A stretch of DNA of 64,000 nt from Arthrobacter sp. 31Y (GTDB taxonomy: Bacteria > Actinomycetota > Actinomycetes > Actinomycetales > Micrococcaceae), in contig NZ_JAFW01000001.1 of NCBI RefSeq assembly GCF_000526335.1, forward strand, positions 1,736,001-1,800,000, written 5' to 3'. Shown here in pieces: positions 30,240-56,930 of the stretch. Under the pieces are notes generated by a model. It was not told where the DNA came from. It did not search any database and saw nothing but the letters and a program-made list of their open reading frames with translations. Each line of letters opens with the position of its first letter. Positions within the stretch are counted from its first letter, which is position 1. A program made the translations under genes and the position numbers.

Positions 30240-30328
30240 AACCGCACAGGACGTCTCCGGAACGTCCCCCACAGCACGAATACCGCTTCTGGAAACACCC
30301 CACGGGACACTCAATGAGGAGATCTTCC

Positions 30329-33564: not shown

Positions 33565-33697
33565 TGCTGGTGGCTCCTGTTGTTGCGCCGCATGGGATCC
33601 CACCCATTCTGGCATCCGTAGCGCCGTTGATTTCACATTCTCCATAATACTTACTTTAGTCATTGACAAAAGATATTGGAACTGGCAATCTCAACCC
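33565..33697. promoter_or_regulatory. Divergent ROK / dehydrogenase-sulfatase promoter region
   Basis: A 133-bp gap. A TTGACA at 33664-33669 reads rightward but has no convincing -10 at 17 bp (CAATCT). The right part is AT-rich (ATAATACTTACTTTAGTC, 33648-33665), a plausible ROK operator region. No perfect palindrome longer than 6 bp was noticed. Confidence 0.4.
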
Positions 33698-34744: not shown

Positions 34745-34746
34745 CC

Positions 34747-36093: not shown

Positions 36094-36098
36094 TCACC

Positions 36099-37385: not shown

Positions 37386-37414
37386 GTCCAGCCCAACCAC
37401 CGATTGGTCACCCC

Positions 37415-38371: not shown

Positions 38372-39267
38372 CTGCCACCGTCTCCACTCCAACTGTTGGC
38401 GGGCGCCCCGCCAAGGGCGGAGTCCCGGGCCCCGCCGGGCGCAGCCCGCGCCGCAACACCGAGAAACGCCGCCAGCGCACCCTGACCTGGGTGCTTGCGG
38501 TCATCTCGCTCTTCACCGTCGCACCCCTGATCGCCGTGGCCGTGCTGGCGCTCTCCCCCGAAGACGCGCCCACCCTGCCCTACGCTTTGCCGTCGTCGCT
38601 GACGCTGGACAACATTGTCCGTATCTTCAACGTGGGTGAATTCCCGCTCTGGCTCTGGAACTCGTTCCTGTACTCGGCAGTGTCCGTGGTGGTTGTCCTG
38701 CTGACCGCTTCCATGGCCGCCTACGCTTTGGCCCGCAAGCGGTTCCCGGGACGGAACGCGCTGCTGTGGGCCATCATCGCCACCATGATGGTGCCCGTTC
38801 AGGCCACGCTGATTCCCACGTTCATCCTCATCTCCAAGATGGGCGGAGTGAACACGCTGTGGGGCCTGATCCTTCCCACACTGGCCAACGCCCAGGCGAT
38901 CTTCCTCATCCGTCAGTTCGTGCGGGACATGCCCGAGGAACTGTTCGACGCCGCCCGCATTGACGGTGCCGGCGAATGGCGGACCTTCTGGCAGATCGTG
39001 CTCCCACTGATCAGGCCTGTCCTGGCAACCCTGGCAATCTTCGTCTTCCTCTGGCACTGGAACGATCTCCTGTGGCCCTTGGTAGTGGGGCAGTCGGACG
39101 CAGCAAGAACGCTCACTGTGGGCTTGGCAACGTTGAACACCGAGACCGCGTCCACGTCCAACGTCATGGCCGCAACACTGGTCAGCTTCATCCCTTGTCT
39201 GGTGATCTTCGCCCTCCTGCAGAAGCACATCGTCGCCAGCATCACGCACAGCGGGGTGAAGGGATGA
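38368..39267 (+). CDS. Sugar ABC transporter permease (MalG/UgpE type)
   Basis: A 299-residue permease with a basic, Pro-rich N-terminal tail of about 30 residues and the EAA loop ELFDAARIDGAGEWRTFW. GTG start at 38368 overlaps the preceding stop; its own stop overlaps the oxidoreductase start as ATGA. It pairs with the preceding permease. Confidence 0.93.
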   Translation: MTATVSTPTVGGRPAKGGVPGPAGRSPRRNTEKRRQRTLTWVLAVISLFTVAPLIAVAVLALSPEDAPTLPYALPSSLTLDNIVRIFNVGEFPLWLWNSFLYSAVSVVVVLLTASMAAYALARKRFPGRNALLWAIIATMMVPVQATLIPTFILISKMGGVNTLWGLILPTLANAQAIFLIRQFVRDMPEELFDAARIDGAGEWRTFWQIVLPLIRPVLATLAIFVFLWHWNDLLWPLVVGQSDAARTLTVGLATLNTETASTSNVMAATLVSFIPCLVIFALLQKHIVASITHSGVKG

Positions 39268-40175
39268 CTTCCACCGCTCCCATCCGTTTCGGTCTCATCG
39301 GCGTCGACTCTCCGCACGCGCCGTCCTTTACGCGGCTTTTCGGGAATGGCGTCGACGGCGTGGTCCCCGGCGGCACGGTGACGCACGCGTGGAAGGGGGA
39401 AGCGGCGTCGGACTTTCCCTTGAGCTGTGACCGCATTGACCACTTCGCGGACGAGGTGCGTCGGCTGGGCGTGACCCTCTGCGATTCACCGGAAGCCGTG
39501 GCCGAGGCCTGCGACGCCCTGCTCATAGTGGCCTCGGATTCACGGACCCACCCGCGCTACTTTGAGCGGGTGGTGCGGTTCGGCAAGCCGATCTATGTGG
39601 ACACCCGATTCGCCCCCACCCTTGAGGAGGCCCGGAACATGCTCGCCCAGGCGCAGGCCTCCGGAGCCTTGGTCCTGGCAGGTTCCCCCAAGCGCTTCAC
39701 AGCTGAGTTTCAGGCGGCCCTGTCCGGCGGGCAACGTCAGTCCGTTTCCTTGGACGGCCCCCTGCCTACCCAGCCCGGCCACCCTGGCTTGGCTTGGTAC
39801 GGCGTGCACCTGGTGGACCTTGCGGTGGCCGCGCTCGGCGCCGGACCGACAGCAGTCACGGTCGACGCCGGTGGACCTGGAAGCGGTTCAGGCTCCACCA
39901 CCGTGACGGTCGCGTGGGGTGACGGCCGTGAGGCACATCTGGGCGGAGCAGCAGACTGGCACCCCTTCACCACCGGACGCATCGACGCAGGCTCCGAATT
40001 TTCCATCGAGGCCCGCGAAGCAATGCTCGTGGGACTCCTGGAAAGCATAGTGACCTCGTGCCGGACGGGCACCCCGAACGTGCCGCTACGGGAAATCCTC
40101 AGCATCGTCGCCATCGTGGAAGCGGCCAACAAGAGCCTGGAAGCCGGGCTCTTGGTGACTCTGGGCAGCCAGTAA
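39264..40175 (+). CDS. Gfo/Idh/MocA-like oxidoreductase, atypical
   Basis: A 303-residue protein with a Rossmann-type N-terminus (RFGLIGVDSPHAPSFTRLF, then ALLIVASDSRTHPRY). The usual EKP motif is replaced (IYVDTRFAPTLEEAR), so the catalytic Lys is missing. The C-terminal domain is short. It may be a sugar dehydrogenase with altered chemistry or a non-catalytic relative. ATG at 39264 overlaps the permease stop, so it belongs to the operon. Confidence 0.7.
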   Translation: MTSTAPIRFGLIGVDSPHAPSFTRLFGNGVDGVVPGGTVTHAWKGEAASDFPLSCDRIDHFADEVRRLGVTLCDSPEAVAEACDALLIVASDSRTHPRYFERVVRFGKPIYVDTRFAPTLEEARNMLAQAQASGALVLAGSPKRFTAEFQAALSGGQRQSVSLDGPLPTQPGHPGLAWYGVHLVDLAVAALGAGPTAVTVDAGGPGSGSGSTTVTVAWGDGREAHLGGAADWHPFTTGRIDAGSEFSIEAREAMLVGLLESIVTSCRTGTPNVPLREILSIVAIVEAANKSLEAGLLVTLGSQ

Positions 40176-40190
40176 AAAGGTCAGCCTGGA

Positions 40191-40245
40191 TGTCTGAATT
40201 TGTTCGGATGATGGAATTCCGGGTCCTCGGCTGAAACGCTGGATG
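40191..40245 (+). promoter_or_regulatory. Tandem operator plus conserved promoter block upstream of nagB
   Basis: TGTCTGAATT (40191-40200) and TGTTCGGATG (40201-40210) in tandem, then GGCTGAAACGCTGGATG at 40229-40245. The block is the same as at 30185-30239: the second element is a 17/17 match and the spacing is identical. This links nagB and the beta-propeller gene to the same regulator, even though a long operon separates them. Confidence 0.75.
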
Positions 40246-40313
40246 GAATATCCCGAGGGGCTGCATTTGCGCTGCCGTCCCGGCTGTAAGCACGCTCGAA
40301 CTTAAGGAAACCC

Positions 40314-41105
40314 ATGGCAGAAATCATCATTGTCCGCGACCAAGCCGAGGCTGGAAGTGTGGCCGCGTCGATCTTTGCGAAGCAGATCATCGCCAACCCG
40401 GGCACCGTACTTGGCCTCGCCACCGGATCCACCCCTCTGTCCACCTATGCAGCTTTGGCACGGGCAGTCAGCGAAGACCGGATCGATGTTTCCGGCGTTC
40501 GTGGCTTCGCCTTGGACGAGTACCTCGGCGTCCCACCACAGCACCCCGAGAGCTACCGCTCAGTGATCACCCGCGAAGTGGTGGAGCCTTTGGGATTGAA
40601 CCCGAATCACGTGTTTACGCCCAGAGGTACGGGCCCGGACATCACCAAGGCCGGGGCGGAGTACGAAGCAATGATCACCGAGGCCGGGGGCATCGACATC
40701 CAAATTCTGGGCATCGGTTCCAACGGCCATGTGGGTTTCAACGAGCCCGGATCGTCCTTGGCATCGGCGACCCGCATCAAGGCGCTGGCCGAACAAACAC
40801 GCAAGGACAATGCCCGCTTCTTCGGGTCCCTTGAGGAGGTTCCCACCCACTGCATCACCCAAGGCCTGGGCACCATCCTCCGTGCCAGGCAGTTGGTCCT
40901 CCTGGCCTTCGGTGCGAACAAAGCGGACGCGGTTGCATCTGCGTTGGAGGGTCCGGTCTCGTCAGCCGTTCCGGGCTCGGTCATTCAACAGCACGCGCGG
41001 GCTACGGTGATCATCGATGAGGACGCTGCCGCAAAGCTGGCTCATGCCGAGTACTACCGGCACGCATGGCGGTCGGCGCAGGACCTGAATGCAGTAGCTT
41101 TCTAG
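40314..41105 (+). CDS. nagB: Glucosamine-6-phosphate deaminase
   Basis: A 263-residue NagB. Family segments: LGLATGSTPLSTYAAL, FALDEYLGVPPQHPESYRSV, the catalytic-loop region ILGIGSNGHVGFNEPGS and the late EGPVSSAVPGSVIQQH. It converts GlcN-6-phosphate to fructose-6-phosphate and ammonia. Start at 40314 follows TAAGGAAA. No nagA (deacetylase) is seen next to it. It has its own promoter and is the last gene before the sulfoquinovose cluster. Confidence 0.95.
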   Translation: MAEIIIVRDQAEAGSVAASIFAKQIIANPGTVLGLATGSTPLSTYAALARAVSEDRIDVSGVRGFALDEYLGVPPQHPESYRSVITREVVEPLGLNPNHVFTPRGTGPDITKAGAEYEAMITEAGGIDIQILGIGSNGHVGFNEPGSSLASATRIKALAEQTRKDNARFFGSLEEVPTHCITQGLGTILRARQLVLLAFGANKADAVASALEGPVSSAVPGSVIQQHARATVIIDEDAAAKLAHAEYYRHAWRSAQDLNAVAF

Positions 41106-41347: not shown

Positions 41348-42604
41348 TTATTGCCCTTGGGCAGCCAGGAGACGCGAGTCCAGCAGTCCTGCCGCGACTG
41401 CCGGAGCGAGCCCGGGAGCCAGCGGAAGCCGCGGAACTACCAGGCAGTGCCACAAGTGATAAATGTCAGCCTTGCCAGACCAGACAGTGGACGCGACGTT
41501 GCCGTGCTCATCCAGCTCTTGTTTCCAGGAACCGTGCTCATAGTCGATGAACCAGTCCCGTGCGTGGTCCCAGATTCGCTCGTACCACTCCGCGTAGGCC
41601 TCGTCTCCGGTTGCCATGTACAGCGCGGCCGCGCCCCCGATTGCTTCCACCGGTACCCAGCGAATGCGGGACGTGACAATGGGCTTGCCCTCCCAATCAA
41701 CGGAGTAAACAAAACCAGGATGGCCATCCGGCTCCCATGCGTCACGGATCGCAGCGGCGAAAAGGCCCTGTGCGTCTTCCATCAGCCACGCAGGAACGTC
41801 CATGGTGCGAGCCTCCAGACCGGCACGGAGGTGCAACAGGAGCCTGGCCCACTCAACCCAGTGGCCGGGCGTGCCACCATAGGCGCGGAACTGGCTGGCC
41901 CGGTCATCGGTGTTGTACTCCGGAATCGGGTTCCAGTCAGGGTCGAAGTGCTCGAAGACCCGGTAGTTGTTATTACGCGCAAACTTGTGGATGAGCACCT
42001 CAGCGATATGGAGTGCCCGCTCAATCCAGCGGTTTTCGCCGGTCACGTCGGCCACAATGAGATAGGCCTCAACAGAGTGCATACTGGCGTTCCCGCCACG
42101 GTAGGCCTCGGTTTCCGTAAACTCGCGATTCCACGAGTCGAAGCACATATTGGCTTGGTGGTCCCAAAACTTCGAGTCGGCGATGTGCAAGGCTTCGTCC
42201 AGCAACTTTTGGGCACCGGGCCGACGGGCCGCGACGGCACTCGCTGCGGCCAGGAGCACGAACGAATGCTGATATCCGGACTTTGTGTCATTCACTGGCC
42301 CGTTTTCGTCCACCTCCGCGTACCATCCACCAAATTCGTGGTCACGGAAGACTCCATTGAGCGCGGCTATGCCATGGTCCACCATGGACGCGGCACCCGG
42401 ACGCCCCATCAACGCCGCAACAGCAAAACTATGGACCATACGGGCGGTGATCCAGAGATGGGTGGGCTTGTCAGCCATGACCTTCCCGTAGTTGTCGAGC
42501 CAGCCAAAGCCCGTGGGGACCTTCGAGCCGGAGGCGAAATTGATGAGCCGGTCTGTTTCGGCTTCGAGCCAACGTGCGTGAGCGGCGCTGTTCAACCACG
42601 TCAT
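41348..42604 (-). CDS. yihS: Sulfoquinovose isomerase, YihS-like (AGE fold)
   Basis: A 418-residue N-acylglucosamine-2-epimerase-fold isomerase. From memory it aligns with E. coli YihS almost end to end: [35 protein letters not shown] and [10 protein letters not shown]. Counting from the ATG at 42604, R55, H176, H248 and H383 fall at the same numbers as the YihS catalytic residues. It should convert sulfoquinovose to 6-deoxy-6-sulfofructose in the cytoplasm. GAGGAG lies 6 bases before this ATG; the ATG at 42610 abuts the RBS. It has its own promoter. Confidence 0.92.
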
Positions 42605-42848
42605 GTGCATCTCCTCATTAAATTTGCGGCCACCAGAGGTAAGGCCTGTTCTTATGCTAATCCCTGGTGATTGAATTCCACCAGATAAAGTTTGTTTTCA
42701 AACAATCAACTGTTAAAGCAGTGCCCCTTGCGAAGGCAGGAGGACATGCCTCTAGCCCAGTGCCACGGAATTTGGTAGCGACAACACGTCGGGCAGTGGC
42801 CCGCTTCGGGGAACGCTAAGACCCGCAGGTCTAAGCGGCGTCAGTGAG
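42605..42848 (-). promoter_or_regulatory. Promoter region of the sulfoquinovose isomerase gene
   Basis: A 244-bp gap with two dyads: CTGGTG-N9-CACCAG at 42664-42684 and TTGTTT-TC-AAACAA at 42692-42705. The second includes TGTTTGAAAA on the minus strand. The first resembles the cluster operator in its core (GAATTCC versus TAATTCC), but its spacer is longer. The regulator gene ends at 42849, so this gap is the isomerase promoter. Confidence 0.6.
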
Positions 42849-43631
42849 TCATTCAGCGACGATCAAACGGACGTTGGAAGCGGACAATGCCGCAGCTACT
42901 TCACGGGGCGGCGGCGCGTCGGTGACAAGAATGTCTACAGCCTCGAAGGAAGCCAACCGTGCCAGCGCGTACCGAAGCATCTTCTGGTGGGTCGCGACCA
43001 CCACAACTTGCTCCGCCGAACCCATCAGCGCCAACTTCGTTGCCCGTTCCACATCCCGCTCAATGTAGAAACCTTCATCATGGATTCCGCTCACCCCAAT
43101 GAAAGCCGTCTTGGCCCGAAGCCCCTGGACGGCGTTGACCGTCATGGGCCCGTTGAACGCCTGGCTATCCAACAACAGTTCACCGCCCAGGCAAATGGTC
43201 CGGGCAGACGTGAGCTGCAGGCACCGTTGTATGGCAGGAGCGGAGTGGGTGATGATGGTGCCCATGAAAGCGGCCGGGAGCTCCTGGGCTATCTGGTAGG
43301 TAGTGGTTCCAGCGTCCAGGATAATCGCGTCGCGCTCGGAGATCAGGTCCACACAGGCCTTCGCGACCCTCTGCTTCGCGTCGGCGTCTTCCCGGACGCG
43401 TGCCGCGAAATCAGCATTTTGGCCGTGGCCTTCAATGGCACTGACCCCGCCATGAACCACCTTGACCAGTCCGAGCTTGGACAATGCACGCGTATCACGG
43501 CGGACCGTCATGTCCGACACGTCGAAAGTACCGGCAAGATCTGCAGTGGAAAGGAATCCCCGCCTGCCAAGCTCGTCCAGAATGGTCTGCTGCCGCGGTG
43601 TCAGCGGCGCCTCTTCTCGTGCGATGCTCAT
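42849..43631 (-). CDS. DeoR family regulator of the sulfoquinovose cluster
   Basis: A 260-residue DeoR regulator. The HTH is at residues about 13-65 (LTPRQQTILDELGRRGFLST, VSDMTVRRDTRALSKLG) and the sugar-phosphate-isomerase-like sensor at about 85-245 (AIILDAGTTTYQIAQEL, IGVSGIHDEGFYIERD). The role equals that of E. coli CsqR (YihW), also DeoR-type. ATG at 43631 lies behind AGAGGGGA. An 18-bp palindrome (43680-43697) lies 48 bp upstream, so autoregulation is likely. Confidence 0.88.
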   Translation of the reverse strand: MSIAREEAPLTPRQQTILDELGRRGFLSTADLAGTFDVSDMTVRRDTRALSKLGLVKVVHGGVSAIEGHGQNADFAARVREDADAKQRVAKACVDLISERDAIILDAGTTTYQIAQELPAAFMGTIITHSAPAIQRCLQLTSARTICLGGELLLDSQAFNGPMTVNAVQGLRAKTAFIGVSGIHDEGFYIERDVERATKLALMGSAEQVVVVATHQKMLRYALARLASFEAVDILVTDAPPPREVAAALSASNVRLIVAE

Positions 43632-43679
43632 GGCTTCCCCTCTTTTGACGCCCCCCGGACCGATCATCGGTGTAGGAAA

Positions 43680-43697
43680 GTGTTGTAATTCCAACAC
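43680..43697. promoter_or_regulatory. Operator 1 of the sulfoquinovose regulon
   Basis: GTGTTG-TAATTC-CAACAC, a perfect 6-bp dyad with a 6-bp spacer, in the 74-bp gap upstream of the DeoR gene. Related copies occur at 44918-44935 and 52445-52462. Confidence 0.82.
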
Positions 43698-43705
43698 AAT
43701 CTTAC

Positions 43706-44863
<1,158 letters not shown>

Positions 44864-44917
44864 TCAGCGTTGAGTGAAGGGGATCGACGTTGCATCCCGA
44901 ACATCACTATACCGAAT

Positions 44918-44949
44918 GTGTTGTTTTTCACACATAGCGTGTGTATATT
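44918..44949 (+). promoter_or_regulatory. Kinase-operon promoter with operator 2
   Basis: -35 TTGTTT (44921-44926) and -10 TATATT (44944-44949) with a 17-bp spacer read toward the kinase gene. The operator GTGTTG-TTTTTC-ACACAT spans 44918-44935, covering the -35; it matches the copy at 52445 at 15 of 18 positions. A nested perfect dyad, ATGTGT/ACACAT, lies at 44916-44935. Binding here would block the main catabolic operon. Confidence 0.82.
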
Positions 44950-44984
44950 TTTTCATTACCAGCCCAACTACAACGAGGTGGAAC

Positions 44985-45884
44985 GTGCCCCAACCGTCAT
45001 CCGGAACCCTGCTTTTCGTCGGGTGTGCCACTTTGGACTCCATCGCTCTCGTACAGGAATACCCTGCCGCCGACAGCCGGACCGTAGCCAACGACTTTGC
45101 TACGGCAGGTGGCGGACCTGCAGCCACAGCCGCTGTGGCTGCAGCCCGAGCCGGCGCCAAGGTTGCCTTTGCCGGCGTCCTTGGTACGGACGAAGAAGGC
45201 GACCGGATCATCACCGGACTCGAGGCCGAAGGCGTGGACACTTCTGCTGTCATCCGTGACCCTCATGTCAACACTGGCGCGAGCGTGATTGTTGTCAGCA
45301 AGGCTACCGAAAGCCGGGCGATCGTCACCCGGCCCGTACCGCCAATCCACTTTCCTGCCGGCAGCCGCTTTCACGATCTCCTTCACGCTGCTGAGTGGGT
45401 CCACGTGGATCACTTAGGCTGGAACGCCATAGCTGATGTGACCGGCCTACGGATCAGCGTGGATGCCGGCAACCCGATTCCATCCTTCAGCCCCCAGGGC
45501 GTTGAGCTTTACGTTCCCACCATCGAACGCCTGCAGGCCGTGTACGGAGCCGATCTCAAACCTGAAGACCTCGTGCAAAAGGCCATTGAAGACGGTGCTT
45601 CAACCGTGGTTGCCACTGCAGGGTCGGAGGGAGCCTGGGGCCTCGAACGGGGCGGCGTCCCCTTCCACATCCCCGCAACCCCCGCCAACATCGTCTCGAC
45701 GCTCGGCGCCGGTGACGTTTACCACGGCGCCATCCTCGCGGCCGTCGCTGCAGGACTTCCGCTCGCGGAGGCTGCGTCGTTCGCAGGCCGTACTGCCTCG
45801 GCTTCCTGCGCTGGCCTGGATGGGCGTTCCATGATCCCCCGCGAGACCTTCACCTCTGTCCTTACCGCTAATCCCACCCTCTAG
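44985..45884 (+). CDS. yihV: Sulfofructose kinase, YihV-like (PfkB family)
   Basis: A 299-residue PfkB-family kinase, the same length as E. coli YihV (298). The N-terminal signature GGGPAATAAVAAARAGA matches YihV closely. The C-terminal signature STLGAGDVYHGAILA contains the catalytic Asp. It should phosphorylate 6-deoxy-6-sulfofructose at O1. I choose GTG at 44985 behind GAGGTGG; an in-frame start at 44874 would run through the operator and promoter. The aldolase follows after 16 bp. Confidence 0.88.
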   Translation: MPQPSSGTLLFVGCATLDSIALVQEYPAADSRTVANDFATAGGGPAATAAVAAARAGAKVAFAGVLGTDEEGDRIITGLEAEGVDTSAVIRDPHVNTGASVIVVSKATESRAIVTRPVPPIHFPAGSRFHDLLHAAEWVHVDHLGWNAIADVTGLRISVDAGNPIPSFSPQGVELYVPTIERLQAVYGADLKPEDLVQKAIEDGASTVVATAGSEGAWGLERGGVPFHIPATPANIVSTLGAGDVYHGAILAAVAAGLPLAEAASFAGRTASASCAGLDGRSMIPRETFTSVLTANPTL

Positions 45885-45900
45885 CTGAAAGAAGCAGCCC

Positions 45901-46785
45901 ATGAGCAACACAGACCTTTCCTCCCTCCAGCGCCCGTCCGGTGCTTTCGCCATGCTCGCCGTCGACCAGCGCGAAGCCATGCGAAACATGTTCGCCGAGC
46001 ACACAGACCAAGCCGTCACTGACGAGGACCTCCGCGACTTCAAACTCGCAGCTGCCCGTATCCTCACTCCTTACGCTTCCGGCGTCCTCATTGACCGCCA
46101 GTTCGCTCTTGATGCGGCCATCGAAGCCAACGTGGTTGCCCCGGGCTGCGGGCTCATCGCTTCCGCCGACCATTTTGAGTCTGCCCACGGAGAGCTTGTG
46201 GGCGAAGTGACAATAGACAGACTGGTTGATCCCAAGAAGTACGCAGCATTGGGCGTCACGGCCCTCAAACTGCTGGTCCTCTACCGCCCGGACGAAGCTC
46301 CCGAAGGTCGCGTAGCGATGGTCCGCGAATTCGTGGAAAGCTGCAAATCGGCCGGGCTCATCAGCATTATCGAACCCGTCTCCCGTAAGCCGCTGGCAGG
46401 AGGCGACTTCGACTGGAACGCCGGCATTCTGGCCGCTGCCAAGGAACTGGGCGATCTTGGGGCCGATCTCTACAAAGCCGAAGTCCCCTTCAAGGGCCAG
46501 GCCTCCGAAGCCGAAGTTCGTGCGGCCTGCGCCGAGCTCACCCAGGCCATCAACGGTCCATGGGTAGTGCTTTCTTCTGGTGTACCCGAGGACATCTTCC
46601 CTGACGCCGTCCGCTGGGCTTGCCTGGAAGGTGCCAGCGGGTTCCTTTCAGGACGTGCCGTTTGGGCGTCCTGCATCGGATCCCCGGATGTCATCGACTC
46701 CTTGTCCACGGACGCAGTCGAACGTTTGCAGCGGCTCTGCGCCGTGGTGGACGAAGTGGTCTCTGCACAGCGAACCACCGCCTGA
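45901..46785 (+). CDS. yihT: Sulfofructose-1-phosphate aldolase, YihT-like
   Basis: A 294-residue class I aldolase (YihT 292). The start SGAFAMLAVDQREAMRNMF is nearly that of YihT. The Schiff-base Lys is K192 in GADLYKAEVP. The LSSGV and GRAVWAS segments (R252) match the region that holds the sulfonate-binding Arg in YihT. It cleaves 6-deoxy-6-sulfofructose 1-phosphate into DHAP and 3-sulfolactaldehyde. It lies directly behind the kinase gene. Tagatose-bisphosphate aldolase is the related alternative, but context favours the sulfosugar. Confidence 0.92.
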   Translation: MSNTDLSSLQRPSGAFAMLAVDQREAMRNMFAEHTDQAVTDEDLRDFKLAAARILTPYASGVLIDRQFALDAAIEANVVAPGCGLIASADHFESAHGELVGEVTIDRLVDPKKYAALGVTALKLLVLYRPDEAPEGRVAMVREFVESCKSAGLISIIEPVSRKPLAGGDFDWNAGILAAAKELGDLGADLYKAEVPFKGQASEAEVRAACAELTQAINGPWVVLSSGVPEDIFPDAVRWACLEGASGFLSGRAVWASCIGSPDVIDSLSTDAVERLQRLCAVVDEVVSAQRTTA

Positions 46786-46861
46786 TCCTTCGGGGCATCA
46801 CGGGTGCCCCTCCCCGATTCCCCAATAACTAGGCACAGCAACACTCAACGAGGAGATTATT

Positions 46862-48151
46862 GTGAGTCAGATTTCACGCAGGCAGGCCATGGCTGTTCTC
46901 GGAGCTCTGGGTTTTGGCGCAACCGCCGCAGCATGCGCAGGACCGGGCGGTTCCACCACGCCGGGTGGAGCCACGGGTCCGGCCGCTCCTGCCACCGGTG
47001 ATATCACCGGGAGGGTGTCCTTCGCCCACTGGCGCGGCGAGGACAAGGCAGTATTCGACGAGCTCATCAAGCGTTTCGCAGCAAAATACAGCGGCGTGGA
47101 GGTGGTTCAAGATATTTCCACTTCCAACGATTACAACGCCCAGGGCTTGCAAAAGGTCCGCGGCGCCGCCATCGGTGACGCGTTTGCCACCTTCCGCGGC
47201 GCGCAGTTCAACAACTTCAGTGAAGCCGGGATCTACACGGAGCTGAAGAACAGCAAAGCCGTTGGCAACTACCAGAAGGGCCTGCTGACAGCTGGACAGT
47301 CCGGGGACAGCCAACTAGGCCTGCCATATCAGGTGGTCTTCCCCATGCCTATGGCTAATACGGACCTCTTTGATAAAGCCGGCGCGGAACTGACACCAAA
47401 GGACTGGGACGCTTTCCTGGGCATGTGCGAAAAACTTGCCGCGTCCGGCGTCGTTCCTATCTCATGGCCGGGCGGCGATGTGGGAAATGGTGGTCAGCTG
47501 TTTAACTGCATGATCGCCAACAACGCCCCCGTGGATGACATGTGTTCGCAGATCGAGCAGGGCAAGCTCAAGTGCACGGACGACTGGTTCATCAAGATGT
47601 TGAACCAGTACAAGGATCTGGTCCCCTACCTGCAGCCCAATGCCACCGGCACCGCGGTGGAGCCAGCGCAGAACCTGTTTTCCCAAGGCAAAGCTGCCAT
47701 GCTGGCCACTGGTTCGTACCACATCGCAGCCGTCCGGAACCTGGGTGCGACGTTCCCCATCGAACTGGTCTTCCCCAACACGTCCACGGATGGCAACGCC
47801 AAGTTTGAGGGCGTCTACAACGCCACATTCATTCTGGGCGTGAATTCCGCGAGCAAGAACCAGGCGGCGTCGGCAGCATGGATTGATTTCCTTTCCGAAC
47901 CCGAGAACGCCGGCTATTACGCCAACGAGACGGCGCAGCATGTGTCCGTCAAGGATGTCGAGTACACCAACGCGGACCTCAAGCGTTTGAGTCCGTGGCT
48001 GGACAAGAAAACTGCCCTGGCCGCCCGGTTCCAGTTCCAGAACCTGGACGTCCGCAACGCCGTCGAAGCCAGTGCTACGGCCGTCATCTCGGGCTCAAGC
48101 CCCGAGCAAGCAGCTGAAGCAGCCCAGAAGATTGTTGACGAACGGCTATGA
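46862..48151 (+). CDS. ABC transporter substrate-binding lipoprotein (sulfoquinovose glycosides, inferred)
   Basis: A 429-residue family-1 binding protein with a TAT-like lipoprotein signal: SRRQAMAVLGALGFG, then AAAC. GTG start at 46862 behind AGGAG. The fold is typical (FAHWRGEDKAVFDELIKRF, AMLATGSYHIAAVRNLG). A small hairpin (GGGGCA/TGCCCC, 46792-46810) lies between aldolase and this gene. The stop overlaps the permease start. By position it captures sulfoquinovose or sulfoquinovosyl glycerol. Confidence 0.9.
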   Translation: MSQISRRQAMAVLGALGFGATAAACAGPGGSTTPGGATGPAAPATGDITGRVSFAHWRGEDKAVFDELIKRFAAKYSGVEVVQDISTSNDYNAQGLQKVRGAAIGDAFATFRGAQFNNFSEAGIYTELKNSKAVGNYQKGLLTAGQSGDSQLGLPYQVVFPMPMANTDLFDKAGAELTPKDWDAFLGMCEKLAASGVVPISWPGGDVGNGGQLFNCMIANNAPVDDMCSQIEQGKLKCTDDWFIKMLNQYKDLVPYLQPNATGTAVEPAQNLFSQGKAAMLATGSYHIAAVRNLGATFPIELVFPNTSTDGNAKFEGVYNATFILGVNSASKNQAASAAWIDFLSEPENAGYYANETAQHVSVKDVEYTNADLKRLSPWLDKKTALAARFQFQNLDVRNAVEASATAVISGSSPEQAAEAAQKIVDERL

Positions 48152-49104
48152 GCACCCATACCGGAATGGCTGCCAAGCGGAAGGCACCGGAAAACACCAC
48201 TCAAGCTGCGTCGAAGAAGCGCCGCTCCCCTACCCGCGTGAACCCTGCACTGTACTTGTTCCCGCTGCCGGCGGTTGCCATCATCGCTTTCTTCCTGGTG
48301 ATGCCTACACTGCAGGCTTTCCAGTACGCCATCACGGACTGGAACGGGTTCTCGGCCGCCTTCAACTACGTGGGCGTGGACAATTTCGTCCGGGCATTCA
48401 CCAAGGATTCACTGTTCACCAACGCCCTGACCAACAACCTGAAGTTCGTTTTGCTGGTGGTCATCGCACAAACTGTGTTCTCATTGCTGCTTGCGCTGCT
48501 GCTGACAAAGAATTCCCGGGGAAACGTGGTGCTTCGTGCCTTGTTCTTCTTCCCCACCATCCTGTCCTCGGTGTCTGTGGCCTTCATCTGGAAGTTCATC
48601 TACGATCCCAATTTCGGTCTCGCCAACTCGGCTCTGGGCGCTATTGGCTTGGAGGGCCTTCAGGGCTCATACCTCGGCAACAATTCCCAAGCGCTGTATT
48701 GGGTTGCTGTGACCCAAGTGTGGTTCCACGCAGGCCAAATGATGGTGGTCTACATCGCCGGCCTCCAGGCCATTCCGCGCGAACTGTATGAAGCGGCAGA
48801 GATGGACGGTGCCAACAAATGGCAGCAGTTCAAGTCCATCACCTGGCCCTTCGTTGCCCCGGCCACATCCATCGTGGTCGCCTACACCACGGTCCAGTCG
48901 TTCAAGGCCTTTGACCTGATCCTGGGTATCGCGGGCAACCCTCCCAAAGGGTCCCTGGACATTCTCTCCACGCGCATCTACAGCACTTTCGCCAACTCGG
49001 AGTTCGGATATGCCGCCGCCCAGTCAATCATCTTCATGGGGATGATCGCCTTGGTCACCTGGCTGCAGCGCCGGTTGCTCCGTCTGACCCCGAAGGGGGA
49101 ATGA
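48148..49104 (+). CDS. ABC transporter permease (MalF/UgpA type)
   Basis: A 318-residue permease with a basic 30-residue N-terminal tail, about six membrane segments and EAA loop ELYEAAEMDGANKWQQFK. It starts inside the end of the binding-protein gene (4-nt overlap). No ATPase subunit is encoded in the cluster. Confidence 0.92.
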   Translation: MSTHTGMAAKRKAPENTTQAASKKRRSPTRVNPALYLFPLPAVAIIAFFLVMPTLQAFQYAITDWNGFSAAFNYVGVDNFVRAFTKDSLFTNALTNNLKFVLLVVIAQTVFSLLLALLLTKNSRGNVVLRALFFFPTILSSVSVAFIWKFIYDPNFGLANSALGAIGLEGLQGSYLGNNSQALYWVAVTQVWFHAGQMMVVYIAGLQAIPRELYEAAEMDGANKWQQFKSITWPFVAPATSIVVAYTTVQSFKAFDLILGIAGNPPKGSLDILSTRIYSTFANSEFGYAAAQSIIFMGMIALVTWLQRRLLRLTPKGE

Positions 49105-49108
49105 CAGC

Positions 49109-49924
49109 ATGCTTGCATCAATCAGCCGCCGCGGAATCCTTGCCATCTATGCGGTCATTATCATCGTCCCCATCACCGTTGTCCTGTTCGGCAGCTTCAA
49201 GTCCACGCAGGAACTCTTCGAGGGTCCATTCAGCCTTCCCCAGTCCCTTGCTCCCGACAACTTCGCGGAAGTCATCGGCGGCCAGGATCTCGGCTCGTCC
49301 TTCCTGAACAGCGTCATCGTCACCGGGATTTCCGTTCCCATCACGCTCTTCATCGCCAGCTTGGCTGGATATGCCGTGGCCCGGCTGAGGGGCTTCGCGT
49401 CGTGGGCCATCTTCGGATTCCTGGTGTTGGGAATGGCCATCCCAGCCCAAGCCAACATGGTGCCGCTGTATGTGCTGTTCGGCCGCATCGGCCTGCTGGA
49501 CAACCTCACCGGGCTCATCGTGGCCAACATCGTCTCCACGCTGCCCATTGCAGTGTTCATCCTGGGTGGATTCATGCGTACGCTGCCTAAAGAACTCTAT
49601 GAGGCATGCTCCATTGACGGCACTGGACCATGGCGGACCTACGTGTCCATAGCGCTCCCGCTCTCGGCGCCCTCCATCGCCGCTGCTGCCATCTTCCTGT
49701 TCGTCATCCACTGGAATGAGCTGCTGTACCCGCTCTTGTTCATCCAGTCTCCCGGAAACCGAACCCTTCCCTTGGCCCTGCTGAGCTTCCAGGGTGAGTT
49801 CCAAACCAACTACCCGCTCTTGTTCGCCGGCGTCATCCTGGCATCGCTGCCCGTTGTGGTGGCCTATGTCTTCCTGCAGCGCTACTTCGTTGCGGGCATC
49901 ACCGCCGGTGCCAGCAAGGGATGA
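49109..49924 (+). CDS. ABC transporter permease (MalG/UgpE type)
   Basis: A 271-residue permease with six membrane segments and EAA loop ELYEACSIDGTGPWRTYV. It lies 4 bp after the partner permease. Together with it and the binding protein it makes the importer of the sulfoquinovose cluster. Confidence 0.92.
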   Translation: MLASISRRGILAIYAVIIIVPITVVLFGSFKSTQELFEGPFSLPQSLAPDNFAEVIGGQDLGSSFLNSVIVTGISVPITLFIASLAGYAVARLRGFASWAIFGFLVLGMAIPAQANMVPLYVLFGRIGLLDNLTGLIVANIVSTLPIAVFILGGFMRTLPKELYEACSIDGTGPWRTYVSIALPLSAPSIAAAAIFLFVIHWNELLYPLLFIQSPGNRTLPLALLSFQGEFQTNYPLLFAGVILASLPVVVAYVFLQRYFVAGITAGASKG

Positions 49925-49982
49925 GGCCACATTCCGGCCGCCGGACACCGCACCTCTCCCAGCCAACGAAAGGCAACATCAA

Positions 49983-51422
49983 GTGAACCTGAAATCAGCG
50001 CAACACCTGATTAACGGAACCTGGCACTCTGCCGGAACATTCAAGGACGTAACGGACCCCGGAAACGGGAGCACCGTAGGCGAAGTGGCCTGGGGAACAG
50101 CTGAGGACGCGGGCAAAGCCGCTGACGCCGCTGCCGAAGCTTTTGGCGATTGGTCCCGGACGACTGCCCGCACCCGCGCCGACCTTCTCCGCAACGCCGC
50201 TGCGCTGTTGTCCGAACGCCGCGACGAACTGGCGCATACCCTGGCGTTGGAAGCGGGCAAACGACTGCCCGAGGCGCAAGGCGAAGTGGACTTCTCAGTG
50301 GAATACTTCCGCTGGTTCGCCGAGGAAGTACGCCGCACAACGGGCACCGTCAGCCCACCCGAACTCCGGGGCCGCCGACACCTCAGCACCAGCAAACCCA
50401 TTGGGGTAGCCCTTAGCCTCACCCCCTGGAACTTCCCGGTATCCATCCAAGCCCGCAAACTAGCCGCCATGCTCGCGGCCGGCTGCACCGTGGTGGGCCG
50501 TGTCTCCGAGAAAGCACCGCTTGCCGCGACCGACCTTTTCGAAATCCTGCACGATGCCGGGTTCCCCGCCGGAGTGATCAACCTCGTGCACGGACCCTCC
50601 CGCGAAATCACCGGCGCCCTGCTCAAGCACCCCGCAGTCCGTGCCGTCAGCTTTACCGGCTCCACCGGTGTGGGCCGTCAAATCATGGCTTCCGCGTCCG
50701 AACGGGTGGTGCGGCCGTTGCTGGAACTCGGCGGCAACGCACCGTTCATCGTTTTCGAGGACGCAGACCTTGACGCCGCCGTTGAGGGGGCAGTACTCGG
50801 AAGGCTCCGCAACACAGGACAGTCCTGCGTCGCTGCAAACCGCTTCCTGGTCCAAGACAGCATCGCGGACGAATTCGGCCGGAAACTGGCCGCGAAATTT
50901 GATGCGATGACCATTGGGCACGGCGTGCCGGACGGTGATTCGCCCGTCCCGGATCTTGGTCCAGTCATTGACGTTGAGCGCGTTACCGCTGTACAGGCCC
51001 TGGTGGACGATGCCCTTGGCCGCGGAGCCCGCCGCCTCACCGAACGCACCCAAGTTCCTGGAGAGGGCTCCTTCATGGCACCCACACTTCTCACGGATGT
51101 TCCCGACGACGCACCCTTGGTGAGCGAGGAAGTCTTCGGCCCCGCGGCGGGCATAGTGACGTTCTCCACTGAAGAGGAAGCAATCAAGAAGGCAAATGCC
51201 ACCGAAATGGGGCTTGCCGCCTACGTCTGGAGCAGCAGCCCCAAGCGTGGCTGGGACATCCCGGAACAGCTGGAAGCAGGCATTGTAGGAGTCAACGATC
51301 CCCTCCCGTCCGTGGCCTTCGCACCCATGGGCGGTGCCAAGCAGTCAGGTCTGGGCCGGGAAGGATCAAGCCTCGGCCTCGAGGAGTTCGAGGAGGTCCA
51401 GTACGTGGCCTGGAAGCCCTAA
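49983..51422 (+). CDS. Aldehyde dehydrogenase, candidate 3-sulfolactaldehyde dehydrogenase
   Basis: A 479-residue ALDH-superfamily enzyme. Catalytic Cys282 is in RNTGQSCVAANR and Glu248 in LELGGNAP; SFTGSTGVGRQI is the cofactor loop. GabD-like relatives oxidise sulfolactaldehyde to sulfolactate in sulfoglycolysis, and the position behind kinase, aldolase and importer fits that job. The usual cofactor-binding KPSE is replaced by GRVSEKAP, so the Lys becomes Arg. GTG start at 49983 with GAAAGG upstream. Succinate-semialdehyde dehydrogenase is the generic alternative. Confidence 0.82.
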   Translation: MNLKSAQHLINGTWHSAGTFKDVTDPGNGSTVGEVAWGTAEDAGKAADAAAEAFGDWSRTTARTRADLLRNAAALLSERRDELAHTLALEAGKRLPEAQGEVDFSVEYFRWFAEEVRRTTGTVSPPELRGRRHLSTSKPIGVALSLTPWNFPVSIQARKLAAMLAAGCTVVGRVSEKAPLAATDLFEILHDAGFPAGVINLVHGPSREITGALLKHPAVRAVSFTGSTGVGRQIMASASERVVRPLLELGGNAPFIVFEDADLDAAVEGAVLGRLRNTGQSCVAANRFLVQDSIADEFGRKLAAKFDAMTIGHGVPDGDSPVPDLGPVIDVERVTAVQALVDDALGRGARRLTERTQVPGEGSFMAPTLLTDVPDDAPLVSEEVFGPAAGIVTFSTEEEAIKKANATEMGLAAYVWSSSPKRGWDIPEQLEAGIVGVNDPLPSVAFAPMGGAKQSGLGREGSSLGLEEFEEVQYVAWKP

Positions 51423-52166
51423 ATGCTGACTACCGGACTCGTTCTGGGCGCAGTGGTCATGGGTGCCGGGATGCAGCGCATTACCGGCATGGGATTTGCG
51501 TTGGTGGCAGCCCCGTTCCTGGTACTTCTCCTCGGCCCCGTGGAAGGGGTGGTGCTGGTCAACGTCTGCGGAGCCGTGACGGCCGGCGCCATCATCTTCC
51601 GCGTCATGAGGGACATCGACTGGAAGAGATACCTGGCACTGGCTTCCTCGGCGCTTTTGGGGATTGTTCCCGCGGCATTCCTCATCCGGTACCTGCCGCC
51701 GTCGGTCCTGGAGATTTCGATCGGGGTGACCCTTGCCTTGGGGCTGACCGTCCTGCTGGTCATGAAGTCAGCCGTCCTGCCCCAGCGTCGCCGCTATCTC
51801 TTCACCGCGGGGGGCCTCAGCGGCTTCATGAACACCGCCGCAGGGGTGGGGGGACCAGCCGTCAGCATTTACTCCATGGCTACCCGGTGGCAGCACAAGT
51901 CGTTCGCCGCCACGATGCAGCCCTACTTTTTCACCATCGGCGCCTTTTCCCTTATTTCCAAAGCGGTAACCGCTCCAGCTTCGTTTCCCGTCCTGCCGAT
52001 GACAATGTGGCTAGCCGTCGCCGCTGCCTGTTTGATCGGGCTTGTCCTGGGTGACCTCGCCTCCAAGCGGGTTTCCACCCGGGCCGCCCAGATTCTCCTG
52101 ATTATCCTGGCCTACCTGGGAGCAGCAGCCACCATCGTTCGCGGTGTGCTTGACGCCATTGGCTGA
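51423..52166 (+). CDS. TauE/SafE-family exporter (sulfolactate export inferred)
   Basis: A 247-residue membrane protein with about eight hydrophobic segments of the TauE/SafE type (MGAGMQRITGMGFALVAAPF, SGFMNTAAGVGGPAVSIY). It starts on the base after the dehydrogenase stop. Members export organosulfonates or sulfite; here the product would be sulfolactate. Its position directly after the dehydrogenase fits the end of the pathway. Confidence 0.85.
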   Translation: MLTTGLVLGAVVMGAGMQRITGMGFALVAAPFLVLLLGPVEGVVLVNVCGAVTAGAIIFRVMRDIDWKRYLALASSALLGIVPAAFLIRYLPPSVLEISIGVTLALGLTVLLVMKSAVLPQRRRYLFTAGGLSGFMNTAAGVGGPAVSIYSMATRWQHKSFAATMQPYFFTIGAFSLISKAVTAPASFPVLPMTMWLAVAAACLIGLVLGDLASKRVSTRAAQILLIILAYLGAAATIVRGVLDAIG

Positions 52167-52218
52167 ACGCTCCTCCAAACAACATTTAGATCCCACCACC
52201 ACCATCGAAAGGACTGCC

Positions 52219-52419
52219 ATGTCCCCCGTTTCATCAAAAATCGATTCAGCAGAAGAACGTACCCTGCGGGTTTCCGCAACCAAGGGTGAACCTGTCGCTC
52301 TGACGATTGATGGCTCCAATCCAGTGTCCGTTCGGCTTGAAATTGACAACAACTGCGGCTGCGCCGAAAGCCCTGTCAGAGTCGGCTCGTATACCGATAC
52401 TGACTTCGGAGGGCGCTGA
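52219..52419 (+). CDS. Small cysteine-containing protein, unknown
   Basis: A 66-residue protein with a good RBS (GAAAGGA, 5 bases before ATG 52219). The first 45 residues predict beta-strands (TLRVSATKGEPVALTIDG, VSVRLEIDN). A CGC motif and a Gly/Ser/Thr-rich tail ending GGR follow. No signal peptide or membrane segment. No family recognised. It is the last gene of the main sulfoquinovose operon, 52 bp after the exporter and just before operator 3. It may be a small accessory or regulatory protein, or a modified peptide. Confidence 0.65.
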   Translation: MSPVSSKIDSAEERTLRVSATKGEPVALTIDGSNPVSVRLEIDNNCGCAESPVRVGSYTDTDFGGR

Positions 52420-52444
52420 GAGGATTAGCTTCCTCCACCTGATA

Positions 52445-52462
52445 GTGTTGGTTTTCCAACAT
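52445..52462 (+). promoter_or_regulatory. Operator 3 of the sulfoquinovose regulon
   Basis: GTGTTG-GTTTTC-CAACAT, 46 bp upstream of the phosphohexomutase start. It differs from operator 1 at four positions. It suggests that the mutase gene has an internal promoter under the same DeoR regulator. Confidence 0.78.
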
Positions 52463-52507
52463 CATCCGTTCGCTTCCTATCATTCAGGCGTGCCCGCAAG
52501 GAGAACC

Positions 52508-53902
52508 ATGGATCTTTCCTCATCTTTCAAGGCCTACGACGTCCGTGGCTTGGTGGATGTTTCCCTCACCGATGAAGTTGCAGAAGCCATCGGGGCAGCA
52601 TTCGTGGACGTTCTGGGCCTCGCGGGCAAGACCGTCTTCTGCGGCGGAGACATGCGTCCGTCCTCCAAGGGGTTCGTTTCTGCGTTTTCACAGGGTGCCG
52701 CGGCCCGGGGCGCCGAGGTATGCGACCTCGGACTCATTGCCACGGACGAGCTCTACTTTGCCTGCGGCGCCATGAACGCGGCTGGTGCCATCTTCACAGC
52801 AAGCCATAACCCTGCCCAGTACAACGGAATCAAGATGGCCAAGGCCGGAGCTGTTCCCATCTCTTCTGACTCAGGACTGTTCGAAATCCGGGACCTTGCC
52901 CAACGCTATCTGGACCACGGGTATCCCAAGGCAGAATCAGCGGGGACCGTTTCGCCGCTTGACGTCCTTAGTGAATATGCGCTCAAGCTGCGTTCGCTCG
53001 TGGACCTGACGGGAGTGAGGCCGCTAAAAGTTGTAGTGGATGCAGGCAACGGCATGGCCGGCCTAACAGTTCCCGCAGTGTTGGGCAGCCAGATTCTGGA
53101 GGACTTGCCCTTGACTATCGTCCCCTTGTATTTCGAGCTGGATGGCACCTTCCCCAACCACCCGGCCAACCCCTTGGAACCGGAGAACCTTCGGGACCTG
53201 CAAGCAGCCGTGCTTGCCCACGAAGCTGACCTTGGGCTGGCATTCGACGGCGACGCTGACCGCTGCTTTGTTGTGGACGAGACCGGTCACCCTGTGACAC
53301 CGTCGGCCATTACTTCCATGATCGCGGTGCGCGAGATTTCAAGGGTTCAAGCAGCGGGCCAGGGCAAACCCGTGGTGATCCACAATTTGATCACGTCCCA
53401 ATCGGTGCCCGAGTTCGTGAAGGCGGCTGGTGGCCGGCCAGTCCGTACACGAGTAGGCCACTCGTTCATCAAGGCACAAATGGCTGAAGAAGACGCCGTC
53501 TTCGGTGGGGAACATTCGGCCCACTACTACTTCCGTGACTTCTACAACGCGGACACCGGGATGCTGGCAGCCATGCACGTCCTTGCTGCCCTGGGCGAGC
53601 AATCCGCGCCCCTGTCCACGCTTGCACGGCAATACGAGCCGTACTCGGCCAGCGGAGAAATCAACTCAACCGTGGTGGATGTTTCCCAAGCCATTTCGGA
53701 CGTGCGCGAAACGTACCAACAAGCGCAGGGTGTCCGCATTGATGACCTTGACGGGCTGAGCGTCATCGACGAGTCAGGCGAATGGTGGTTTAACCTCAGG
53801 GCCTCAAATACGGAGGAACTGCTCAGGCTCAACGTCGAAGCCACCGATGAAATGACTATGGGCCGCATGCGGGATGCTGTCCTGGACATGATCCGGAAGT
53901 AG
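52508..53902 (+). CDS. Phosphomannomutase/phosphoglucomutase
   Basis: A 464-residue alpha-D-phosphohexomutase. The active-site Ser lies in FTASHNPAQYNG, the metal loop is AFDGDADRCF, the sugar-binding loop is FGGEHSAHYYF and the phosphate-binding loop is RASNTEELLRLNVEA. It interconverts hexose 1- and 6-phosphates. ATG 52508 follows AAGGAGA. Its link to the sulfoquinovose operator suggests a role when cells grow on the C3 unit DHAP and must rebuild hexose phosphates. A housekeeping ManB at this place by chance is the alternative. Confidence 0.9.
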   Translation: MDLSSSFKAYDVRGLVDVSLTDEVAEAIGAAFVDVLGLAGKTVFCGGDMRPSSKGFVSAFSQGAAARGAEVCDLGLIATDELYFACGAMNAAGAIFTASHNPAQYNGIKMAKAGAVPISSDSGLFEIRDLAQRYLDHGYPKAESAGTVSPLDVLSEYALKLRSLVDLTGVRPLKVVVDAGNGMAGLTVPAVLGSQILEDLPLTIVPLYFELDGTFPNHPANPLEPENLRDLQAAVLAHEADLGLAFDGDADRCFVVDETGHPVTPSAITSMIAVREISRVQAAGQGKPVVIHNLITSQSVPEFVKAAGGRPVRTRVGHSFIKAQMAEEDAVFGGEHSAHYYFRDFYNADTGMLAAMHVLAALGEQSAPLSTLARQYEPYSASGEINSTVVDVSQAISDVRETYQQAQGVRIDDLDGLSVIDESGEWWFNLRASNTEELLRLNVEATDEMTMGRMRDAVLDMIRK

Positions 53903-55794: not shown

Positions 55795-56874
55795 CTACTC
55801 CGCGTCTTCCCCCGTCACCGTGGACTCCCGGATGATCAGCGTCGGGGCCAGGCTCACACGCCGCAGCGCCGGAGACGCCAATGAGCCGGTCTTCCCGCCC
55901 AGCCGTTCCATGCACATGGCGACGGCGGCATGGCCTACGTCCCGCTTCGGCGGGGCGATGGAGGTCAAGGGTACCGGGGCGAGGTCCGCCACCTCGTCGT
56001 CATAGGCCACGATCGCCAGGTCCTCGGGGACGTCAAGCCCGGATTCCTCGGCGAGGTTAATCAGGGTAATGGCTTCTTCGTCCGGGAGCACCAGGGCCGC
56101 GCGCGTCTCAGTTCGGCGGCAGTCTTTGAGGAATTTCGCGAACTCCTTTTGGTTGTTGCCTGCGCCCACCACTGAACGGACGTATTCCATGATGGGTGCA
56201 TCATTCTCGAGCCCTAGCTTGGCCACCATGCGCTCGTGGCTTTCGCGGAGCCACGGCGCCGTGGGGCTGGTGGCGATGGCAAGTCCAATCCTGCGGTGGC
56301 CCAGGGATGCGAGATGTTCAAGGGCAAGCTCGGCACCATAGCTGTGATCGGACATCACGGATTCAAACACCCGGCTTGAACGTTCCACGAGCACTACGGG
56401 GATTCGCAGCCCGGACAGCAGCTCGAACGTTGGAGATCCGGGTTCCAGGGATCCGGCGGTTGCCAACAGTATCCCGTCCACGGAGTTGGCCACCATGCGT
56501 TGAAGCTGCCGGTGCTCATCCTCGGCAGAGTAGTTGCTGACGCCCAGAATCAGCCGGGCGTTCAATTCCCTCGCGGCTGATTCTGCGCCGCGGATGACCT
56601 CAGGAAAGTAGTAGCCCGTGGTCGGGACAATAAGTCCCAGGGTCGCGAGCGGCTGGCGGGATCTCCTGTGAACGGTGTCGCCTTGCCGTTCAGAGGGGAC
56701 GGGAACGGCACCGCCGTGGACCCGGCGCAGCAGTCCTTGGGCAGCGAGCTGCGTCAGGTCCCGGCGGATGGTCATGGTGGACAGGCCGGTCTTCTCCGCG
56801 AACCCATTGACGGTCAGGGTTCCCCGCATTTCAAGCTCACGCAGAATCTTCTCGTGGCGTTCGCCGCTGAGCAT
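55795..56874 (-). CDS. Transcriptional regulator: DeoR-type HTH fused to LacI-type sensor (copy 2)
   Basis: A 359-residue paralogue of the regulator at 1662-2810. The HTH (residues about 1-55; FAEKTGLSTMTIRRDLTQLA, LLRRVHGGAVPVP) precedes a sugar-binding domain (LGLIVPTTGYYFPEV, IVAYDDEVADLAPVPLTSIA). I start it at ATG 56874 behind GGAGAGG; the in-frame extension to 56928 lies upstream of that RBS. TGTTTGAACA on the minus strand at 56907-56898 sits in its promoter, matching the motif before the neighbouring operon, so it may regulate itself and that operon. Confidence 0.88.
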   Translation of the reverse strand: MLSGERHEKILRELEMRGTLTVNGFAEKTGLSTMTIRRDLTQLAAQGLLRRVHGGAVPVPSERQGDTVHRRSRQPLATLGLIVPTTGYYFPEVIRGAESAARELNARLILGVSNYSAEDEHRQLQRMVANSVDGILLATAGSLEPGSPTFELLSGLRIPVVLVERSSRVFESVMSDHSYGAELALEHLASLGHRRIGLAIATSPTAPWLRESHERMVAKLGLENDAPIMEYVRSVVGAGNNQKEFAKFLKDCRRTETRAALVLPDEEAITLINLAEESGLDVPEDLAIVAYDDEVADLAPVPLTSIAPPKRDVGHAAVAMCMERLGGKTGSLASPALRRVSLAPTLIIRESTVTGEDAE

Positions 56875-56930
56875 GCCCACCCTCTCCGAAGTCCAGATGT
56901 TCAAACAAGCATAGGTGACCGTATGCACGT

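Follow-up and report, generated by a model that had tools for sequence, protein, structure and literature searches.

The window considered here is a stretch of 64,000 nucleotides from Arthrobacter sp. 31Y (contig NZ_JAFW01000001.1, positions 1,736,001 to 1,800,000; coordinates below are those of the window), and it carries at 41348-52166 a ten-gene cluster that we read as a chromosomal sulfoglycolytic Embden-Meyerhof-Parnas (sulfo-EMP) cluster of the Arthrobacter type, predicted to convert sulfoquinovose (SQ) to excreted sulfolactate (probability about 0.93). We favor this assignment because the sugar-releasing enzyme, SqgA, is 92% identical to a crystallized GH188 enzyme and has the sulfonate-binding residues; because, for the isomerase, the kinase, and the aldolase alike, the best or near-best match is an SQ-pathway enzyme of known structure; because the isomerase groups with sulfoquinovose isomerases in a tree and the gene order is shared with SQ-pathway strains, AK04 and MYb23 among them; because Arthrobacter sp. 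AK01 and AK04 were measured to grow on SQ with release of sulfolactate (Kaur et al. 2022, PMC8873060); and because the genome holds no PF04295 protein and a palindrome of the control regions is conserved.

All frames of the cluster are open in the open reading frame (ORF) list of the window, and the conservation of the genes over the named loci described below excludes chance as the origin of the cluster. A plasmid collection gave no near match to the cluster region, in agreement with its position on a contig of 4,972,072 bases. Outward from the center, the minus strand carries sqgA, deoR, and the isomerase gene, and the plus strand carries, in order, the genes of the kinase, the aldolase, the binding protein, permease 1, permease 2, the aldehyde dehydrogenase, and TauE, followed by a gap and a mutase gene. 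Every gene named in the first-pass annotation of this DNA is present and open within the span given there, but the GH188 gene sqgA (43706-44848) and the mutase gene (52508-53902) had been overlooked. Upstream alignments refined the starts of the kinase (GTG 44985), the dehydrogenase (GTG 49983), and the mutase (ATG 52508), and make ATG 43631 the most likely start of deoR, versus a longest ORF reaching 43697. The predicted features are as follows.

41348 to 42610, minus strand: sulfoquinovose isomerase, YihS type, AGE family (phmmer E 2.7e-176 to PDB 7AG4; tree; discriminating residues)
42849 to 43631, minus strand: DeoR-family regulator (PF08220 and PF00455; the listed ORF extends to 43697)
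43680 to 43697, unstranded: candidate operator 1, perfect palindrome GTGTTG-N6-CAACAC in the sqgA-deoR gap (conservation)
43706 to 44848, minus strand: SqgA, GH188 NAD+-dependent sulfoquinovosidase (795.8 bits to PDB 8QC2 over 380 of 380 residues; active-site residues)
44906 to 44957, unstranded: conserved block in the divergent sqgA/kinase control region (24-sequence alignment; degenerate palindrome at 44918-44935)
44985 to 45884, plus strand: sulfofructose kinase, YihV type, PfkB family, GTG start (PDB 7AG6, E 5.6e-29)
45901 to 46785, plus strand: sulfofructose-1-phosphate aldolase, YihT type, class I, Schiff-base Lys192 (PDB 7AG7, E 2e-80)
46862 to 48151, plus strand: solute-binding protein of an ATP-binding cassette (ABC) importer (PF01547)
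48148 to 49104, plus strand: ABC importer, permease 1 (PF00528)
49109 to 49924, plus strand: ABC importer, permease 2 (PF00528)
49983 to 51422, plus strand: sulfolactaldehyde dehydrogenase, GabD/SlaB type, GTG start (PF00171; residues matching RlGabD)
51423 to 52166, plus strand: TauE-type permease, likely sulfolactate exporter (PF01925; role proposed in PMC8873060)
52445 to 52462, unstranded: candidate operator 2, palindrome with 1 of 12 positions mismatched (45 bp 5' of the mutase ATG)
52508 to 53902, plus strand: phosphomannomutase/phosphoglucomutase, second genomic copy (NF007088, 665.7 bits, cut-off 618)

SqgA, a Gfo/Idh/MocA protein, differs from the protein of PDB 8QC2, designated a GH188 structure in PMC11465081, at 29 of 380 positions by hand count of the alignment. 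Eight of the nine residues checked (K107, Y136, R166, L170, K172, E189, H193, and H321) occur at their published numbers, and they comprise both the sulfonate-binding Arg166, Leu170, and Lys172 and the substrate-contacting Lys107, Tyr136, Glu189, His193, and His321 of GH188. The published Glu163 corresponds to a valine in the window protein, with a glutamate at 164; the same stretch is identical in the crystallized protein, and the mismatch is probably a matter of numbering. According to the founding work on GH188, such proteins hydrolyze SQ glycosides with NAD+ as a catalytic cofactor, and this hydrolysis was assayed for relatives of SqgA (Kaur et al. 2023, PMC10755693). The cleavage step included in the first-pass route is retained, but the hydrolase, which had never been identified there, is in all probability SqgA. 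A second solved relative, PDB 8QC3, scores 748.7 bits against the window protein, nearly the same as 8QC2; if it is the enzyme described for "Flavobacterium sp. K172" in PMC10755693, the name of that strain may conceal a relative of Arthrobacter. A classical GH31 SQase elsewhere in the genome was also considered; the single GH31 match extends over profile positions 197-328 of 328, and YihQ, which matches there too, is 32% identical over residues 454-665.

In pairwise MAFFT alignments, which were used for all three enzymes compared with their E. coli counterparts, the isomerase is identical to YihS at 243 of 413 positions (59%), and YihS R55, H176, H248, and H383 correspond to R57, H178, H250, and H385 of the window protein. 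These four residues had been cited as support for the isomerase assignment; they are present as claimed but, being identical in all 73 rows of the isomerase tree, mark the wider family only and do not discriminate within it. The tree itself (75 rows gathered, with L008 and L040, two of our numbered loci, dropped for a stop sign in the tblastn segment) places the window protein with the sulfoquinovose isomerases, as the first-pass annotation had expected. In particular, a split with 100/100 support separates 26 order-level relatives from all 31 sulfo-labelled rows, which comprise the window, its copy L053, E. coli YihS, the isomerases of sulfo-EMP loci, and some further proteins, one of which (P0085) is named merely AGE family protein; the 16 unlabelled protein rows all fall on the sulfo side. 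When the duplicate L053 is excluded, the arginine of YihS position 315 is kept in 45 of 46 sulfo-side rows and the glutamine of position 362 in 46 of 46, and both positions are occupied by histidine in 26 of 26 sister-clade rows; the window isomerase has the sulfo-side residues at both (R317 and Q364 in its own numbering). This pair would thus be a useful marker dividing SQ isomerases from the sister clade, whose 26 loci (about 4.2 kb each) yielded no sulfo-EMP enzyme gene and, in seven cases, weak ABC permease matches. The sister clade may consist of mannose isomerases; its members score, like the window isomerase, below the cut-off of the D-mannose isomerase model. Upstream of the isomerase gene, the segment 42611-42720 is conserved in six related loci and contains, in the window and in MYb23, the palindrome GTTTGAAAACAAAC, which is unlike the candidate operator of the cluster.

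The kinase has as its best solved relative the sulfofructose kinase PDB 7AG6 (E 5.6e-29; next best, 1.9e-20), and it is identical to YihV at 102 of 267 positions (38%; 34% by tblastn), so that its earlier description as YihV-like holds. The aldolase, identical to YihT at 146 of 291 positions (50%), has a DeoC/LacD fold, and its K192, to which attention had already been drawn, aligns with YihT K193, as befits a class I enzyme. A quick tree placed the aldolase among actinobacterial YihT-like aldolases; this tree has long branches, lacks LacD rows, and carries SH-aLRT (Shimodaira-Hasegawa-like approximate likelihood ratio test) values as its sole measure of support, so that it shows a placement and not a split from LacD. 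The separation from tagatose aldolases is one of scores, by which alone the LacD-type proteins were compared: E is 2e-80 to YihT (PDB 7AG7) versus 3e-14 at best to tagatose-bisphosphate aldolases, and the tagatose 1,6-diphosphate aldolase models score below their cut-offs (NF009498, 143.9 of 184 bits; TIGR01232, 50.9 of 432.2 bits). The cluster contains both a YihV-type kinase and a YihT-type class I aldolase, the former being the weaker match.

Among these enzymes, two features speak against the sulfo-EMP assignment. The kinase, with its 34-38% identity to YihV, is the weakest link, and the isomerase has Q in place of R at YihS position 238 and A in place of Q at position 379, two positions near the sulfonate; this pair of changes also occurs in the isomerase of AK04 (L013), a strain growing on SQ. 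It could be argued that the pathway acts on ordinary hexoses, its isomerase being a mannose isomerase, its kinase a PfkB kinase, and its aldolase tagatose-bisphosphate-like, considering that the best NCBIfam matches are ManIsomPseudo for the isomerase (NF051846, D-mannose isomerase; 514.1 bits) and the tagatose 1,6-diphosphate aldolase subfamily for the aldolase (144 bits). Nonetheless, neither score reaches its curated cut-off (600 and 184, respectively), the isomerase lies on the sulfo side of a fully supported split with the discriminating Arg and Gln, the aldolase is far closer to YihT, and a mannose pathway would have no evident use for SqgA or the dehydrogenase, all of which makes this explanation very improbable.

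In the dehydrogenase, residues W151-N152-F153, R160, E250, R278, and C284 (numbered from the frame start at 49977) match the RlGabD positions Trp162-Asn163-Phe164, Arg171, Glu261, Arg289, and Cys295 (PMC10599462), and the second Cys is missing, in agreement with a remark on Arthrobacter in the same paper. The ABC importer proposed earlier is confirmed for the binding protein and both permeases but not for an ATPase, no gene for which occurs within the cluster; the single OB_MalK match of the genome is a UgpC-type ATPase outside the cluster, which we infer to serve the SQ importer. As for the fate of the product, a profile search found no PF04295 (UxaA-type) protein in the 5.08-Mb genome, and, since the sulfolactate sulfo-lyase is a member of this family, a sulfo-lyase route from sulfolactate is not expected. 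Intracellular use of sulfolactate was rejected for this absence and because all TIGR03457 matches are below the cut-off, as they are in all 14 control genomes.

The aldolase finds matches in 62 of 198 genomes of the genus, and in 49 of 198 at 80% identity or more (own genome included). All 25 named aldolase loci carry the genes of the kinase, the binding protein, both permeases, the dehydrogenase, and TauE; sqgA occurs in 22, deoR in 22, and the isomerase gene in 21 of the stretches fetched, some of which end at contig ends. The closest locus is that of MYb23 (L002), where the ten cluster genes are each 95-100% identical to those of the window. The isomerase gene lies beyond deoR in six sequences (the window, L002-L005, and L084) while in 16 loci (L012 and L083 being one cluster) it follows tauE on the plus strand; L023 has it past both tauE and the mutase gene, on the minus strand, and in Ruania (L026), it comes first. 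A distant YihT-like aldolase (30-38% identity) was also noticed in L079-L082 and in ten other genomes of the genus; in the four loci fetched, no other SQ-cluster gene was found.

The cluster shares with the published sulfo-EMP clusters of AK01 and AK04 the same enzymes, the ABC importer, a sulfolactaldehyde dehydrogenase in place of the reductase, and the lack of a classical SQase gene in the cluster, and it has TauE in common with AK04 (PMC8873060). The replacement of the reductive branch by oxidation, noted in the first pass, is borne out by the gene content but is not new: PMC8873060 describes it, as well as the ABC importer and TauE. In its arrangement, the window resembles MYb23, a strain named in the Fig. 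4 legend of that paper: both have the isomerase gene beyond deoR on the minus strand, different from AK04, where it follows tauE, and both have after tauE a mutase gene with the common palindrome. The E. coli yih system has a homologous isomerase (59%), aldolase (50%), and kinase (34-38%) and a DeoR-family regulator; different from it, the window has no match to YihQ, YihR, or YihU (YihU-like proteins elsewhere in the genome reach at most 35% identity), and its system would oxidize rather than reduce and import through an ABC transporter. The name sulfo-EMP2, applied to the Arthrobacter system in the first-pass annotation, is wrong: it denotes the SqvD/SqiK/SqiA set of Bacillus urumqiensis, which shares the intermediates but uses non-orthologous enzymes with a class II aldolase (PMC12890257), whereas the window has the YihS/YihV/YihT set with a class I aldolase. 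That another sulfo-sugar, such as sulfofucose or sulforhamnose, is degraded here with the same enzyme folds is suggested by a published sulfofucose pathway of related logic (PMC12421959) and by the interconversion of SQ, sulfofructose, and sulforhamnose by YihS (PMC8873060), but it is hardly credible, considering that SqgA is near-identical to enzymes tested on SQ glycosides (PMC10755693) and that the syntenic strain AK04 grows on SQ (PMC8873060).

The sequence itself establishes the identities of the genes, the residues, the clade membership, and the conserved palindrome, and from these we infer the substrate, the order of the reactions, the transport roles, the repression, and the role of the mutase. 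The ABC importer, powered by the ATPase encoded elsewhere, would take up sulfoquinovosyl glycerol or free SQ, and SqgA would release SQ through an NAD+-dependent cycle of oxidation, elimination, hydration, and reduction. The YihS-type isomerase would convert SQ to sulfofructose, which the kinase would phosphorylate, and the class I aldolase would split the product into dihydroxyacetone phosphate (DHAP) and sulfolactaldehyde; the dehydrogenase would then oxidize sulfolactaldehyde to sulfolactate, to be exported by the TauE protein. This import-to-export route, already outlined in the first pass, fits the cluster and the pathway published for AK01 and AK04 (PMC8873060).

With regard to regulation, an 18-bp palindrome, RTGTTG-N6-CAACAY, recurs at up to three control regions of the cluster. 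In the sqgA-deoR gap, it is present in 23 of 23 sequences (the window and 22 loci) with at most 2 of 12 positions mismatched, 14 of them being perfect, a level that mononucleotide shuffles of these gaps reach in 0.2% of cases. Of 24 sequences of the divergent sqgA-kinase gap, 16 have the palindrome with one mismatch; for the remaining eight, the window included, the best site has three mismatches, which shuffles reach in 5%. Conservation around this site is moderately higher than in the rest of the gap, with 38 of 54 columns invariant at 44904-44957 versus 36 of 72 elsewhere (23 rows, L024 excluded). In Ruania, which belongs to a different family, sites with two and one mismatches precede the isomerase gene, the first gene there. 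A direct-repeat reading of the divergent region was dropped in favor of the palindrome, common to several control regions, and a promoter/terminator consensus scan gave nothing above shuffles. The DeoR protein, 29% identical to E. coli CsqR, is the probable ligand of this palindrome, which would thus be the operator of the cluster with autoregulation; it would most likely repress the divergent operons together with its own gene, and probably the mutase gene as well. A limited literature check on SQ with DeoR or operator, phosphomannomutase, Paenarthrobacter, and actinobacterial regulons, covering few subscription papers, found no such operator, and the words "mutase," "DeoR," and "operator" are absent from the main texts of PMC8873060 and PMC10755693.

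The mutase gene (52508-53902) is the second of its kind in the genome, sharing 68% identity with its counterpart at position 3278096 of contig C1, and the palindrome at 52445-52462 sits 45 bp before its ATG. The palindrome also precedes the mutase gene with zero or one mismatch in L002, L003, L004, and L084, and, where the mutase gene lies on the other side of the cluster, as a perfect site in L020 and a two-mismatch site in L015; the upstream site has three mismatches in L005 and is absent from L022 and L023 (best, four and five mismatches). We therefore regard the mutase as a probable accessory member of the regulon. Such a mutase would find no C6 phosphate on a 6-sulfo sugar and may instead feed hexose-1-phosphate synthesis while the cell lives on triose. 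It is possible to hypothesize an SQ regulon of the Arthrobacter type in which the DeoR-bound operator RTGTTG-N6-CAACAY reaches an accessory mutase, induced with SQ to provide hexose phosphates from DHAP, and we lean slightly toward this view.

Several observations weigh against it. The window's own copy of the palindrome in the divergent gap (44918-44935) is degenerate, deviating at 3 of 12 positions, and the region upstream of the isomerase gene has no site with fewer than three mismatches. The strict pattern GTGTTGN6CAACAY occurs at two places in the 5.08-Mb genome, 43680-43697 and 52445-52462, and a reversed control is matched equally often (each pattern has two forward matches and one reverse match), so that the number is at chance level and the unusual part is that both places are within this cluster; with two mismatches allowed, the count in the window is also near chance (4 found versus 2.6 expected). 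Moreover, the palindrome-bearing mutases are not united in one clade of the mutase tree (two changes), so their common origin is not shown. The genome count equal to that of the control, the mutase tree, and the flagging of one copy by a simple terminator scan whose hits did not exceed shuffles would suit a palindrome that belongs to another regulator or to an RNA feature, with the mutase gene a mere neighbor. We consider this unlikely, if well short of negligible, since the palindrome recurs at up to three control regions, stands directly before deoR in all 23 gaps and before the mutase gene whichever side of the cluster the latter occupies, and in Ruania lies ahead of the first gene.

The surroundings of the cluster deserve a brief description. 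At 32428-41105, ending 242 bp from the isomerase gene, lie genes for a ROK regulator, a 2-hydroxyacid dehydrogenase, a sulfatase (PF00884 and SGSH_C, with a CSPAR motif), an ABC binding protein, two permeases, a Gfo/Idh-like protein, and NagB (370.9 bits, cut-off 326), which together resemble a module taking up a sulfated amino sugar. The region is bracketed by the genes of two beta-propeller-like proteins with leaders resembling twin-arginine translocation (Tat) signals, at 30314-32344 and 57003-59087 in opposite orientation, which are 53% identical over 628 positions. The second of these adjoins a regulator gene at 55795-56928, whose product combines a DeoR-type N-terminal helix-turn-helix with a LacI/RbsR-type ligand domain.

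With this cluster, a type of system already described in the literature is seen in one more strain; our analysis adds the identity of SqgA, a candidate operator, usable for finding members of the regulon, and the mutase gene as a probable extra gene. The occurrence of an aldolase of at least 80% identity in 49 of 198 genomes suggests that the SQ trait is common in the genus. Given the scale of SQ production, estimated at 10 billion tons a year (PMC8873060), the identification of soil bacteria that consume SQ matters for the sulfur cycle.

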